From Campylobacter sputorum subsp. sputorum (GTDB taxonomy: Bacteria > Campylobacterota > Campylobacteria > Campylobacterales > Campylobacteraceae), in NCBI RefSeq assembly GCF_008245005.1, contig NZ_CP043427.1, forward strand, positions 496,001 through 560,000: 64,000 nt of DNA, given 5' to 3'. Shown here piece after piece: positions 1,603 to 46,097 of the stretch (within the stretch, counting starts at the first letter, position 1; the number at the start of each line of letters is the position of its first letter). The notes beneath the pieces are model-generated. The model saw only the letters and a list, made by a program, of their open reading frames with translations, was not told the DNA's origin and did no database searches. The position numbers and the translations under genes are program-made.

Positions 1603-3992
1603 TTTATCTCCTTTATACTTTTTATGCGAAGTGCATTTAACACAACTATTATAGAGCTAAAAGACATCGATAGTGCTGCAAATAGCGGTATTATATATCC
1701 ACACATTGCAAGGGGAATGGTAAGAGAGTTGTATATTAGTGAGAAGATAAGATTTTGCTTGATTATTTTATATGTGCGTTTGGCTATTAAAAAAGCATTT
1801 TTTAAATTTAGTATTTCATTTCCAAGTAAAACTATATCGCTTTTTTCCAAGCTTATATCAGCCCCATTTCCAACACATATAGAAACTCTTGCATAACTTA
1901 GTGCCAATGCGTCGTTTATGCCGTCTCCTACCATCGCAACGCTGTGACCTTTTTTATTTAAATTTTCTATAAATTGTGCTTTTTGTATAGGTAAAAGTTC
2001 GCTTTTATACTCTTGTATTTTTAAATTTCGTGCTACTTCTTTTACCACATTTTCATTATCCCCACTTAGCATTATCGTTTTTAGACCATTTTCTTTTAAT
2101 GATTTTATAAGTTCATATGCATTATCTTTGATTTCATCTTTTAGTTCAAATTTAGCTACTATTTTATTATTTAAAACAAAAAAGTAGTTACTAAAATTAC
2201 TTTTTTGACAATCAAAGCCAAGTTCTTTCATAAGATTGTAGCTTCCACCATAAATTATTTTATTTTCAAATTTAGCACTCATTCCTTTTGCTGTTATATC
2301 TTTTATCTCACTAAGTTTTAATATGTGTAAATTTTCATAACTATTTTTTATATACTCTTTTATGGTAATGCTTATTGGGTGGTTTGAGGCTAAAACAAGT
2401 GAATAAAGTAAGTTTATGTCAAACTCTTCATAAATTTCAGCTTTGCTAACGCTAAGTTTTGCTTTTGTAAGTGTTCCTGTTTTATCAAAAATAACCGTAT
2501 CGCATTTTGATAAATCTTCTATAAATTTAGCTTCTTTAAAAAGAATACCCTTTTTTAAAGCCACATTTAATCCAACTATCGATGAAATCGGTGTAGCAAG
2601 CGCTATCGCACAAGGACAAGCTATGATAATAACAGATATAAAAATAAGCATAGATATGGAAAAATTTCCAGTTTTTGCATACCAAAAAATAAAACTTATA
2701 GCCCCTAAAATCAAAATTGCAAGAGAAAATTTAGATGATATGGCATTTGCGATATTTTGAATTATTGGTTTTTTAGAAGTAGCGTTTTGAAGTAAATTTA
2801 TGATTTTTGATAAAGTAGAGTTTTTAAATTCATTTTTAGCTTCGTAAGTTAAACTGCCATTTAAACATATCGCTCCACTTGTTATTTCATCGTCTTTTGT
2901 TTTATACACAGGAATACTTTCTCCGCTTAAACTTGAATAATCAAAACTTCCTTCACCGCTTAATACAACGCCATCGATTAAAACCTTTTGTCCGCTATTT
3001 AGTATGATAATTTCGCCTTTTTTTATCTCGTTTATGTTTTTTTCCACACTTTTTCCATCTTGCAACACAAAGATGCCCGAGACCATAAAAGAACTTAGAG
3101 AATCAAGAGTATCTGTGGCTCTTTTTTGACTTAAAATTTCTAAATATTTTCCTATAAAAACAAATGTGATTATCATTGCAACAGAGTCAAAATATGTCTC
3201 GCCGACTCTTGAAAACATAGCATATATAGAATAAACATAAGCTATACTTGCCCCACTTGCTACAAGCAGATCCATATTTGGCATTTTGGTTTTTAAAGCC
3301 ATTATGGCACCTTTGAAAAACACGCTTCCAGTATAAAACAGCACAAGCGTAGCAAGTGTAAATTCCCCAAATGCTAATACGCTTTTTATATCTTTATCTA
3401 TGCCGCTAAAATATCCGGCATAATTTGCTATAGCAATCCACATAATATTCATAATGCCAAAAATTCCAACTAGAAGTTTTGCATAAAATTCTCTTCTTAG
3501 TGAGTTTGCCCTTATTTCCGCACGAGTTGCATCATATGGCGTTGGATTGTAGCCGATTAGTTTAATTTTTTCAAATATCTCTTTTAGCGAAATTTCATTA
3601 CTATCCCAGACGATTTTAGCTTTGTTTGTAGTAGCGTTTATGTCAGCTTCTATAACCCCTTTTGTATTAAAAAGTATTTTTTCATTTAGCCAAATACAAG
3701 CAAGGCAGTGAATTCCTTCTATTATTATGTAAATTTCATCAAAGCCATCATCTGTTTTTGTAACATAGTTTTTATATATATAATCTATACTATCAGCAAT
3801 TGTTGTGCTCTGTGTTACAGGTTGAAGCGTATTTTTACCAAGTCTATCGTAAAACTCACCAAAACCAGACTCATTTAAGATATGATAAACATTTTTACAA
3901 CCATTGCAGCAAAATTTAAGTCCATTTTCATCGCTTATCATAGAATTTGTATCAAATTTAAGTTTGCAGTGTTCGCATTTTTGTTGACTCAT
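1599..3992 (-). CDS. ccoI: Copper-translocating P1B-type ATPase CcoI
   Basis: This P-type ATPase exports copper across the inner membrane and supplies the cbb3 oxidase. The 797-residue product starts with a cysteine-rich domain (CEHC at 6-9, CCNGC at 28-32). A heavy-metal-associated domain with GIHCLAC follows near residue 93, then eight predicted helices. The transport motif CPC (in IACPCAIALATP) is near 460, the phosphorylated aspartate is in DKTGTLTK near 500, and the hinge is MVGDGINDALAL. The N-terminal cysteine cluster and the neighbouring ccoS support CcoI rather than a detoxifying CopA. The intergenic region upstream to tpiA is about 80 bases and AT-rich. Confidence 0.9.
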   Translation of the reverse strand: MSQQKCEHCKLKFDTNSMISDENGLKFCCNGCKNVYHILNESGFGEFYDRLGKNTLQPVTQSTTIADSIDYIYKNYVTKTDDGFDEIYIIIEGIHCLACIWLNEKILFNTKGVIEADINATTNKAKIVWDSNEISLKEIFEKIKLIGYNPTPYDATRAEIRANSLRREFYAKLLVGIFGIMNIMWIAIANYAGYFSGIDKDIKSVLAFGEFTLATLVLFYTGSVFFKGAIMALKTKMPNMDLLVASGASIAYVYSIYAMFSRVGETYFDSVAMIITFVFIGKYLEILSQKRATDTLDSLSSFMVSGIFVLQDGKSVEKNINEIKKGEIIILNSGQKVLIDGVVLSGEGSFDYSSLSGESIPVYKTKDDEITSGAICLNGSLTYEAKNEFKNSTLSKIINLLQNATSKKPIIQNIANAISSKFSLAILILGAISFIFWYAKTGNFSISMLIFISVIIIACPCAIALATPISSIVGLNVALKKGILFKEAKFIEDLSKCDTVIFDKTGTLTKAKLSVSKAEIYEEFDINLLYSLVLASNHPISITIKEYIKNSYENLHILKLSEIKDITAKGMSAKFENKIIYGGSYNLMKELGFDCQKSNFSNYFFVLNNKIVAKFELKDEIKDNAYELIKSLKENGLKTIMLSGDNENVVKEVARNLKIQEYKSELLPIQKAQFIENLNKKGHSVAMVGDGINDALALSYARVSICVGNGADISLEKSDIVLLGNEILNLKNAFLIAKRTYKIIKQNLIFSLIYNSLTIPLAMCGYIIPLFAALSMSFSSIIVVLNALRIKSIKEIK

Positions 3993-42894: not shown

Positions 42895-44934
42895 TTGGCA
42901 AAGTCAAGATATCAATCAGTTGAACCAAAAGTTGCTGATATAGTAAATGGTTGGCTAAAACAATATAATTTAGATTATAAGCTAGAACAAGGTAGCTTAA
43001 ATACAGAAATTGATAAAGCCTTAAATGAATACGCTTCAAAAAATGGTGGCAAAGGTGGAAACCGCCCAGATGTAAAAATTCTTTTGCAAGATAAAAATTT
43101 ATATTATTATCCTATCTTGATAGAATACAAAGGCTACAAAGATAAATTAATCAAACTAGATGCAAATAATCAAGTAGAAAATCTAACCGCAAAAAACGAA
43201 CCAAATTATAAAAATATCAATTCATATGCACTAAATGGAGCGGTGCATTACGCAAATGCTATCTTGCACTATACAAGCTATACCGATGTCATAGCCATTG
43301 GCGTTACAGGATATGATGATGAGTTTGAAAAGACTCAGATACAAATCGCAGTTTATTATGTTTCAAAGAAAAACTTAGGCGTGGGGCAAGAAGTTGCTAA
43401 ATACACAGATTTATCATTTTTAAAAAAAGAAAATTTTAACGATTTTATTAAAAAAGTTAAATCTCTATCTTTAAGCCCTGATGAACTTGAGAAAATCAAA
43501 GCCAAAAAAGAACAAGAAATTCAAACAAGCCTAACAAAGCTAAATAACGATATTTATAGAGATGAAAAAGGTTTAAGCGAAAACGATAGAGTCTATTTAG
43601 TAGCTGCTTCGATAATGGCAACTTTAGGAATTCCTAGCAAAGTTAGCCCACTTGAAAAAGATGAGCTAAAGTCATCTACTGAAAAAGGTAGCACTGACGG
43701 TGAAATTATTATCCGTAAAATAGAGGCTTTTTTAAGTCATAAAAATCTCCCAGTTTCAAAGCAAGAGATGATAGTTAGAACCCTTTCAAACACTCTTTTA
43801 ACTGAAAATATAAACCGTCCGATAAACGACGAAAGTCAGCTTAAAAGAGTTTTTACAAAGATTGTTGATGATTTAGGTATTTATTATAAAATCGGGCTTA
43901 CGACTGATTTTACGGGAAAACTTTTTAACGAAATGTATTCGTGGCTCGGGTTTACTCAAGATAAATTAAACGATGTAGTTTTAACGCCCTCATATGTAGC
44001 AAAACTTCTTGTAAAACTTGCAAGAGTTGATAAGGATAGCTATGTTTGGGACTTTGCAACAGGCTCAGCGGGACTTTTGGTTGCTGCTATGAATGAGATG
44101 CTAGATGATGCGAAAAATAAAATTTCATCCCCTGATGAATTAAGACAAAAAGAACTTAACATAAAAGCAAACCAACTTCTCGGACTTGAAGTTTTATCAA
44201 GTATCTATATGCTTGCGATTTTAAATATGATAATGATGGGGGATGGTAGCTCAAATATCCTAAATCAAGACTCACTTTTAAATTTTGATGGCAAATATGG
44301 TTTTGGTAAAACTGAAGAGAAATTTCCAGCCACGGCTTTTGTGCTAAATCCTCCATATTCTGCTGCTGGAAATGGGATGGTTTTTGTTCAAAAAGCCTTG
44401 TCTATGATGAGTAAAGGTTACGCTGCTATCATCATCCAAAATTCAGCTGGAAGTGGCAAAGCAAAAGAGTATAATATAGAAATTTTAAAGCACTCTACTT
44501 TAATAGCAAGTATTAAAATGCCAATAGATTTATTTATCGGTAAATCAAGCGTGCAAACAAATATCTATGTTTTTAGAGTTGGTGAGCCTCATCACAAGGA
44601 TGAAATCGTTAAATTTATAGACTTTTCAAATGACGGCTACACAAGAAGTAATCGCAAAAAAGCAAGTATAAATTTAAAAGATACAAATAACGCAAAAGAA
44701 CGCTACACTGAGCTTGTAAATTTAGTTCGCTTTGGTAAAAGTAAGCTTAAAATTTTCACTGAAAATGAGTATTACGAAACAACGATAGACCCAAATAACG
44801 GCTGCGATTGGAATAAATCAGCCCCAATTGATACAAAACCAAATTTAAACGACTTTAAAAAAACAGTAAGTGATTATCTCGCGTGGGAAGTATCAAATTT
44901 GCTTAAAAATGGAGATGATAGCCTGGGAAAATAG
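42895..44934 (+). CDS. BcgI-like restriction-modification subunit (nuclease plus N6-adenine methyltransferase)
   Basis: The 679-residue protein starts with TTG after AAGGAG. The N-terminal part has the spacing of a PD-(D/E)XK nuclease: Asp59 in NRPDVKILL and Glu77/Lys79 in LIEYKGYK. The C-terminal half is an HsdM-type N6-adenine methyltransferase with motif I in DFATGSAGLL (near 386) and the catalytic NPPY at 485-488. A combined cutting and modifying subunit paired with a separate specificity domain fits the BcgI (type IIB) design, with no HsdR gene nearby. The gene ends in TAG directly after a slippery heptamer. Phase, stop and hairpin there suggest that part of the product is extended into the specificity domain. 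Confidence 0.85.
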   Translation: MAKSRYQSVEPKVADIVNGWLKQYNLDYKLEQGSLNTEIDKALNEYASKNGGKGGNRPDVKILLQDKNLYYYPILIEYKGYKDKLIKLDANNQVENLTAKNEPNYKNINSYALNGAVHYANAILHYTSYTDVIAIGVTGYDDEFEKTQIQIAVYYVSKKNLGVGQEVAKYTDLSFLKKENFNDFIKKVKSLSLSPDELEKIKAKKEQEIQTSLTKLNNDIYRDEKGLSENDRVYLVAASIMATLGIPSKVSPLEKDELKSSTEKGSTDGEIIIRKIEAFLSHKNLPVSKQEMIVRTLSNTLLTENINRPINDESQLKRVFTKIVDDLGIYYKIGLTTDFTGKLFNEMYSWLGFTQDKLNDVVLTPSYVAKLLVKLARVDKDSYVWDFATGSAGLLVAAMNEMLDDAKNKISSPDELRQKELNIKANQLLGLEVLSSIYMLAILNMIMMGDGSSNILNQDSLLNFDGKYGFGKTEEKFPATAFVLNPPYSAAGNGMVFVQKALSMMSKGYAAIIIQNSAGSGKAKEYNIEILKHSTLIASIKMPIDLFIGKSSVQTNIYVFRVGEPHHKDEIVKFIDFSNDGYTRSNRKKASINLKDTNNAKERYTELVNLVRFGKSKLKIFTENEYYETTIDPNNGCDWNKSAPIDTKPNLNDFKKTVSDYLAWEVSNLLKNGDDSLGK

Positions 44935-44974
44935 ATTCCCCACTTAACGAAAAACTACAAAATGTTAAGTGGGG
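44925..44974 (+). promoter_or_regulatory. Candidate programmed -1 ribosomal frameshift signal
   Basis: The heptamer G GGA AAA (44925-44931) is in the zero frame of the upstream gene and follows the X XXY YYZ pattern. The zero-frame stop TAG follows at once (44932-44934). A 6-base spacer then leads to a perfect 11-bp stem, CCCCACTTAAC (44938-44948) with GTTAAGTGGGG (44964-44974), and a 15-base loop. A -1 slip continues into the open specificity frame. All parts are seen; use as a frameshift signal is inference. Confidence 0.6.
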
Positions 44975-46097
44975 CGAGTTTAGGATTGGGGATTTGTTTG
45001 AAGTTGTAGGAACTAAATCATTAGATAGCAATGCTATTGATTTTATAGATAAGGGTATAAATTTCGTTGGTAGAACTTTTGAAAACAATGGAATACAAGG
45101 AAAAATAGCAAAAAGAGACTTTGAACCAAACGAACCTTTTACAATAACAGCCACAGTGATAGGAAATTATAAATATGTAAAATTTCAAAAAGAGCCATAT
45201 TATTGTTCTCAAAATATAAATAAATTATCGCCTAAAATTTTAATAAAAAAATGGAATGATAAAATTGCATATTTTTTTGTATCAAATATACAGAAGTTTG
45301 TTTCTTTATATGATTATCAGCAAAGTGGTTATAAATTGGATGATATAAAAAATCACATAATAAAACTTCCTATAAATTTAAAAAGCGAGATTGATTTTGA
45401 ATTTATGGAAAATTTTATAGCTGAGCTTGAGGCGGAGCGTATAGCGGAGCTTGAGGCGTATCTACTCGTGACAAATTTGAAAGATTATAAGCTTACAACT
45501 GATGAACAAAATGCTTTAAAAGAATTTGAAAATTTAGAGTGGAAAGAATTTAAAATCGGTGATTTATTTAATAGGCTATCAACAAAAAAGCTACCATACA
45601 AAGCTAAAGATTTACCTAATATTCCAACTGATAGATATATCTTGCCTTGTTTAACTTCTAGTTTTCAAAATCAAGGATTAAATTATTATGCACCAAAAGA
45701 AAATGCAACTGTTCTTAAAAATGTAATTTCTATACCTTCAAATAGTGACATTTATAGGGCATATTTTCAATCTAGGGAATTCACAGTTTTATCTGATGCC
45801 TATGGTATTGATTGGATAGATAAAAATTTTGTATTATTATCACAGCAATATTTATTTATAGTTACTTGCATTAATAAAGTTACAGATTTACCTAAATATT
45901 CTTATAAAAATAAACTTGGTGGCTGGAATGTTGTAAAAAATAAATTTATATCCTTGCCAACCAAAAATGGCGAGATTGATTTTAAATTTATGGAAAATTT
46001 CATAATCGCAGTTCAAAAGTTAGTTATAAAATATGTCGTTTTGTATGCGGATGAAAAGATAGAAGTTACTAAAAAGATAGTTTGTAATAAAGGATAA
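44931..46097 (+). CDS. Restriction-modification specificity domain (BcgI B/HsdS-like), no normal start codon
   Basis: This frame encodes two target-recognition repeats. The first begins WGEFRIGDLFEV and the second WKEFKIGDLFNR, and each half ends with IDFEFMENFI or IDFKFMENFI. A central spacer has AELEAERIAELEA. The frame is open from 44922, but has no ATG, GTG or TTG before the TTG at 44994, which lies after the first conserved motif. A start there would remove KWGEFRIGD. Expression as a -1 frameshift fusion with the upstream subunit (679 + 388 = about 1067 residues) would keep it. Alternatives are a lost start (codon 44931 is ATA, one base from ATG) or a decayed gene. Confidence 0.8.
   Translation: MDSPLNEKLQNVKWGEFRIGDLFEVVGTKSLDSNAIDFIDKGINFVGRTFENNGIQGKIAKRDFEPNEPFTITATVIGNYKYVKFQKEPYYCSQNINKLSPKILIKKWNDKIAYFFVSNIQKFVSLYDYQQSGYKLDDIKNHIIKLPINLKSEIDFEFMENFIAELEAERIAELEAYLLVTNLKDYKLTTDEQNALKEFENLEWKEFKIGDLFNRLSTKKLPYKAKDLPNIPTDRYILPCLTSSFQNQGLNYYAPKENATVLKNVISIPSNSDIYRAYFQSREFTVLSDAYGIDWIDKNFVLLSQQYLFIVTCINKVTDLPKYSYKNKLGGWNVVKNKFISLPTKNGEIDFKFMENFIIAVQKLVIKYVVLYADEKIEVTKKIVCNKG
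45420..45458 (+). repeat. 24-base spacer repeat in the specificity gene
   Basis: The unit starting GCTGAGCTTGAGGCG recurs 24 bases later as GCGGAGCTTGAGGCG, encoding AELEAERI then AELEA between the two recognition domains. The repeat is in frame, so changes in copy number would alter the spacer length without breaking the frame. Confidence 0.6.

Follow-up and report, generated by a model that had tools for sequence, protein, structure and literature searches.

Evidence for a programmed −1 ribosomal frameshift joining a nuclease-methyltransferase to its specificity part in Campylobacter sputorum and relatives

The A and S reading frames and their junction

The window, that is, the whole 64,000-nucleotide stretch of DNA analysed here (Campylobacter sputorum subsp. 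sputorum, contig NZ_CP043427.1), contains a gene for a predicted nuclease-methyltransferase, A, which is followed by a specificity part, S, in another reading frame. Judged by its sequence, the pair looks like a BcgI/Type IIG-like system. The methyltransferase domain of A is clear, its nuclease domain gives a weak VRR_NUC match (9.6e-5, just below the cut-off), and the match over the whole A chain is clear (REase_MTase_IIG, 808 bits, PADLOC), while the S part downstream of A has two domains and matches Specificity_II (PADLOC). Searching the PDB by sequence gave no match for A (E up to 0.001) or for S (E up to 0.01). The features of the locus, in window positions, are as follows:

42895..44934, + strand: A gene, 679 aa, TTG start; N-terminal nuclease-like region and N6 adenine methyltransferase (N6_Mtase, 2.4e-21)
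44911..44914, + strand: Shine-Dalgarno (SD)-like GGAG, a putative third stimulatory element, 10 nt 5′ of the heptamer
44922..46097, + strand: S reading frame (specificity part), in the −1 register, which would be entered from the heptamer after a shift
44925..44931, + strand: slippery heptamer G_GGA_AAA (GGGAAAA), in phase with A
44932..44934, + strand: zero-frame stop codon TAG of A, immediately 3′ of the heptamer
44938..44974, + strand: putative stimulatory hairpin, 11-bp stem (44938-44948 / 44964-44974) with a 15-nt loop, 6 nt 3′ of the heptamer
44961..45458, + strand: first target-recognition domain (Methylase_S; G000:C1:540961-541458)
45534..46007, + strand: second target-recognition domain (Methylase_S; G000:C1:541534-542007)

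The A gene ends in the codons CTG GGA AAA TAG. The S frame overlaps it in −1 and is open from 44922 to a stop codon at 46095-46097. Upstream of the motif WGEFRIGDLF it contains no ATG, GTG or TTG, the first such codon being a TTG at 44994, inside the motif. The 5′ arm of the hairpin, CCCCACTTAAC (44938-44948), pairs perfectly with GTTAAGTGGGG (44964-44974), and the 6-nt spacer between heptamer and hairpin, TAGATT (44932-44937), includes the stop codon. The predicted energy of this hairpin is −16.7 kcal/mol (z −3.26), with 1 of 200 shuffles as good; the region 44700-45200 has no Rfam match at E up to 1. An earlier note on this DNA had proposed a frameshift at this point. Its coordinates for heptamer, stop, hairpin and S frame were found to be correct on re-reading the sequence, its perfect 11-bp hairpin and its start-less S frame are both present, and its product sizes of 679 and about 1067 residues agree with the arithmetic of the reading frames (679 + 388 = 1067 aa for the predicted A-S fusion). 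A second site with Methylase_S domains lies elsewhere in the same genome (G000:C1:1654580-1658804), with open frames of 205 and 413 aa.

Conservation of the junction among relatives

Relatives of A were collected by a scan of one genome per species, which yielded 211; the best 80 of the 211 were kept (73-81% identical), and these are titled Clostridia, Bacteroidales, Proteobacteria, Campylobacterales, Lentisphaerae, Chloroflexi, Patescibacteria, Spirochaetales, Cetobacterium and others, many being metagenome bins. In the phylum of the window an A relative at E 1e-60 was present in 73 of 397 genomes, and in E. coli A relatives were present in 29 of 5,426, with more contributed by viral, plasmid and phage records. 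Few were found in the classes around Pasteurella atlantica (1 of 369 genomes) and Streptococcus marimammalium (4 of 398), counting the centre genome in each case. L166 and L167 duplicate L024 and L080 and were removed; 167 A loci were then counted. The frame of S was assigned with an S-motif HMM built from −1 members. The motif was recognisable in 156 of the 167 loci, in −1 in 130, while 13 were scored in frame and 13 +1, scores that are partly matches to a downstream S domain (e.g. L119, L121, L122, L125, L126). In the other 11 loci an A stop or S motif was not found (L030, L071, L109, L120, L123, L128, L129, L134, L162, L164, L165). As the loci are related and their junctions seem to recombine, the counts below lack independence, and the shuffle tests and p-values make the case look stronger than it is.

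The slippery site was assessed within the A/S overlap, defined as the stretch open in both frames (median 6 codons). Of the 130 loci whose S is in −1, 124 had an in-phase X_XXY_YYZ there, compared with about 13 expected from a frequency of 0.0127 per codon (999 in 78,885 codons of the remaining A genes). The in-phase heptamer that the earlier note saw directly before the stop is thus a feature shared by more relatives than chance would give. Two of the 124 (L092, L136) are poly-G runs counted as heptamers, and the canonical heptamer was absent from the overlap in L007, L049, L066, L132, L137 and L154. The heptamer nearest the stop was GGGAAAA in 57 loci, GGGAAAG in 44, CCCAAAG in 10, AAAAAAA in 5, AAAAAAG in 3, AAATTTT in 2, CCCTTTT in 1 and poly-G in 2. 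Leaving poly-G and the last base aside, five XXXYYY types therefore occur in phase (GGGAAA, AAAAAA, CCCAAA, AAATTT, CCCTTT). Parsimony on a tree of A gave at least 10 changes of heptamer type, a figure that is only rough because the tree is a quick one with long branches and the junctions seem to recombine. In this tree L115, L160 and L165 were left out as too short, and the labels of L030, L071, L109, L119-L129, L132, L134, L136, L137, L145, L151-L154, L156, L157 and L161-L165 were set by hand.

Codon usage at the slip site was examined in 94 close relatives that had been selected irrespective of the heptamer. In 89 of them a glycine precedes the lysine, and all 89 encode it by GGA; of the other five, three read AAA AAA following an A and two read GAA AAG. 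The codon preceding GGA ended in G in 88 of the 89, even though the residue at this position may be L, E, S, Q, M or P, and lysine was encoded by either AAA or AAG, both of which fit the heptamer rule. Among control columns, 35 other conserved glycines used all four codons, the commonest accounting for 26-66%, and 49 conserved leucines ended in G in only 4-45%. An invariant GGA with a preceding G, regardless of amino acid, indicates selection on the bases and not on the protein. From the heptamer on, the S frame showed codon periodicity, with mean entropies of 0.75/0.36/0.89 at positions 1-3 (1.09/0.69/1.42 in the loop alone), so that the linker I/V-D-A-S-L-N-E-K-L, read in the −1 frame, looks translated.

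The hairpin is conserved as well. In 88 distinct junctions 98.3% of the cells of the 11-bp helix were paired, against 36-52% in slid controls. Changes on both sides of a pair numbered 40 compared with a shuffle mean of 3.0, and were located in 3 of the 11 pairs. Of the 97 loci with uniform spacing, 89 entered the pair count; those left out were L054, L060 and L069, in which the stem is present and displaced by one base, and L141-L144 and L147, which are near copies of L140. RNAalifold recovered 10 of the 11 pairs unprompted. When no heptamer condition was imposed, 84 of 87 loci of equal spacing had 10 or 11 of the 11 pairs and the other three had 5 pairs in register. More distant clades have other, longer stems, with 80.4% of cells paired in 12 sequences (slid controls 35-63%); in these 12 further pair types did not exceed shuffles. 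The junction alignment that the earlier note had suggested as a check thus finds heptamer, stop and hairpin kept in relatives from many phyla.

The position of the stem relative to the slip site and to the stop was compared in the 124 heptamer loci plus six GGGAAAG loci added by hand (L119, L120, L122, L123, L126, L129; L128, with GGAAAAG, was left out). In 107 of these 130 loci the best stem began at a distance of 4-7 nt from the 3′ end of the heptamer, and in 23 it began elsewhere. This spacing was found in 86 of 102 loci where the stop follows at once, in 13 of 19 where it follows one codon later, in the single locus with 12 nt before the stop, and in 7 of 8 with 15 nt, where the stem spans the stop codon or precedes it. 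In total, among the 28 loci with a gap between heptamer and stop, 21 keep the stem 4-7 nt after the heptamer. The stem therefore follows the slip site and not the stop, as fits frameshifting and not re-initiation. In the A clade of L119-L129, GGGAAAG is located 22 nt upstream of the A stop in most loci, and the stem there precedes or spans this stop. The S frame of L119, L122 and L126 is open for only 219-224 aa, with a second S domain matched in another frame, and L121 and L125 have no S at the junction.

A third element lies upstream. Across 123 of the 124 heptamer loci, pairing to the anti-SD sequence peaked about 8-18 nt upstream of the heptamer, with a best-window mean of −4.3 kcal/mol versus −0.98 kcal/mol; in the window this place holds the GGAG. 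Set against a synonymous-codon control, the pairing was better in 85 loci and worse in 38 (p = 1.6e-10, relatedness ignored). For published SD stimulators the range searched was 6-17 nt upstream, according to a passage of PMC4066793.

Passages of the same source also bear on how well these heptamers would slip. In E. coli, G_GGA_AAA is called inefficient in one passage and placed elsewhere among the more efficient insertion-sequence heptamers, G_GGA_AAG, which 44 of the 124 loci use, is efficient, and C_CCA_AAG is among the most efficient (PMC4066793, in part). The loci with C_CCA_AAG followed by TGA have weak stems (−3.4 to −7.8 kcal/mol); given the efficiency of this heptamer, they may depend less on a strong stem.

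Alternative explanations and other junction arrangements

The comparative evidence from sequence makes it very probable that a programmed −1 ribosomal frameshift joins A to its specificity part. The most serious rival is translational coupling, in which ribosomes end at the A stop and restart on S at a nearby or weak start, assisted by the hairpin and the SD-like element. Such coupling is known for hsdM/hsdS of EcoKI (PMC3510504, in part), and distant relatives (L156, L157, L161, L162, L164) are annotated with an S start of its own overlapping A by 4-20 nt, while in L163 and L165 ATG codons of the S frame occur close to the stop of A. At 17 of the 130 junctions, ATG (8) or GTG (9) lies exactly at the slip site. 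However, 69 of the 124 heptamer loci have no ATG, GTG or TTG between the heptamer and the S motif; in the 55 that do, the first is TTG in 22, ATG in 21 and GTG in 12. Among 89 close relatives selected irrespective of the heptamer, the slip-site codon, which corresponds to 44931 in the window, reads ATA in 48, GTA in 33 and ATG in only 8. Neither the retention of GGA and its preceding G whatever the amino acid nor a stem that tracks the heptamer is accounted for by coupling, and we consider it improbable as the general explanation. In some loci, starts near the slip site could allow coupled initiation to supplement the shift or take its place; this could chiefly apply to the C_CCA_AAG-TGA group, where a GTG overlaps the stop and stems are weak. 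The suggestion in the earlier note that the ATA at 44931 is a mutated ATG start was rejected on the same codon counts, and all 8 loci with ATG there retain both the heptamer and 11 of 11 stem pairs, so that among these relatives no ATG homologue lacking heptamer and hairpin was found.

Two further rivals can each be given only a very slight probability. One is that an indel or lost start separated A and S and the system is disabled. Damaged relatives do exist (e.g. L007, L030, L105, L145), but the register, heptamer, spacer and stem are common to relatives from many phyla, and S is open for at least 320 aa in 95 of the 130 loci with S at −1. The one-base deletion that the earlier note had entertained is contradicted by a −1 register common to 130 loci and by the codon periodicity that runs through the S frame from the heptamer on. 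The other is slippage at the level of DNA (phase variation) or of the transcribing polymerase. Repeats that could serve it, (AG)n in L132, L134, L153 and L154 and poly-G in L136, L151 and L152, stand at the junction in a more distant A clade; these junctions resemble phase-variable genes and are a feature of that clade. The junction of the window has only G3 and A4, without a long homopolymer or repeat, and GGGAAAR is no homopolymer, so that we agree with the earlier note that slipped-strand phase variation is unlikely. Nor would a covarying stem be expected from slippage.

Relatives also join A and S in other ways. The two are naturally fused in one frame in, for example, L087, L089, L091, L095 and L155. 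In L096, L105 and L117, S lies in +1 at CTT TAG C, with an overlap of 17 nt and no start before the motif, and in L133, which is cut by a contig end, it lies in +1 at CTT TGA C; all four have AAGGA 4 nt upstream of CTT and lack a start codon in S ahead of its motif. The A gene of L105 is itself interrupted. The A proteins of L116 (fused) and L117 (+1) are nearly identical. In four fused loci (L089, L091, L092, L097) an A_AAA_AAG is in phase and a −1 stop follows one codon later, a reversed dnaX-like layout which, as a lead only, would yield free A by shifting, much as dnaX yields gamma. Folding of five fused loci (L092 not among them) found no strong stem after A_AAG, the best being −6.8 kcal/mol, and the fused loci L093, L095 and L116 are without the X base of the heptamer. 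A junction of another kind, S/S and not A/S, was seen in L176 (a Macrococcoides canis plasmid) beside a distant A, where S is annotated as overlapping pieces (2324-2947 and 2923-3351), the first ending in AAA AAA TAG and the second lying in −1.

Predicted products, relation to known systems and significance

The steps of the proposed shift are as follows. A ribosome reaching G_GGA_AAA would have the stop codon next and the hairpin at its mRNA entrance, probably helped by an internal SD-like contact about 10 nt upstream. Some ribosomes would slip back one base onto GGG AAA and continue through S to make the 1067-aa A-S fusion, and the remainder would terminate to release free A of 679 aa, so that one message would give both forms. 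Frameshifting presumably proceeds at a useful rate in this host.

The BcgI enzyme has the make-up A2B, and BcgI-like systems are characterised by a bipartite target that is cleaved on both sides. Since S has two target-recognition domains, it probably needs two A modules, of which one would be fused and one free; an (A)(A-S) complex would call for a ratio near 1:1. Type I methyltransferases are M2S (PMC6158711, in part). A laboratory M-S fusion of EcoKI was active in cells, and the purified fusion needed added free M in vitro, with proteolysis or early stopping suggested by its authors as the cellular source of free M (PMC3510504, in part). This need for free M makes the ratio idea reasonable, and we lean towards setting the A to A-S ratio as the purpose of the shift. 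A broader and more doubtful possibility is that selection in this restriction family keeps the output, a mixture of free A and A-S, and not one mechanism. The routes to that output would then tentatively comprise −1 shifting on at least five XXXYYY types, a prfB-like +1 shift, perhaps the reversed dnaX-like layout, and repeat phase variation.

The junction resembles the −1 cassettes of dnaX and the IS3 family in having an in-phase X_XXY_YYZ, an SD-like element 6-17 nt upstream and a stem-loop downstream (PMC4066793, in part), and in giving two products with a common N-terminus. In E. coli dnaX the shift leads to the shorter product (PMC3711429, in part), whereas here it would lead to the longer; moreover, the present enzyme is a restriction-modification enzyme, and the slippery bases differ between clades. 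With BcgI-like Type IIB/Type IIG systems it shares an A chain with a methyltransferase and a putative nuclease region, followed by a two-domain specificity part, and relatives are annotated bcgIA or BcgI alpha-chain-like; in BcgI, however, the specificity subunit is separate and has its own start, while the S of the window has none before its first motif. Like the EcoKI HsdM-HsdS fusion, it would place methyltransferase and specificity in one chain (PMC3510504 and PMC6158711, in part), but that fusion was made in the laboratory whereas here the locus itself would make both forms. The +1 sites of L096, L105, L117 and L133 are like that of prfB in having CTTT, a stop and C with an upstream SD-like element (PMC12421855, in part); the spacing differs, as does the stop in three of the four, and these are candidate sites of relatives, not of the window. 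A frameshift-joined A/S was not found described among the papers listed by searches of an open-licence library, though supplementary cluster lists could include it.

The shift would also explain some late annotations of S. In two E. coli prophage-like loci (L177, L178) and in coliphage PhiR12_3 (L159), S is annotated from an internal start past the first motif, or partly as a pseudogene, although the −1 frame runs open from the heptamer over 387 aa (L177), 395 aa (L178) and 387 aa (L159). Their S parts are probably mis-annotated, and specificity parts may be mis-annotated elsewhere.

The natural variants of the junction (heptamers, stems, a possible +1 site and fused forms) offer a set for studying the co-evolution of frameshift rate and subunit ratio. 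If selection does keep the output, how often the ribosome slips would fix the subunit ratio of a defence enzyme, or determine when it restricts. According to a passage of a review of candidates (PMC4066793), the bacterial genes that probably use −1 frameshifting belong for the most part to mobile elements. The present case concerns a restriction enzyme that occurs in many phyla and retains the heptamer, the stem and the SD-like element; it would link recoding with DNA specificity.
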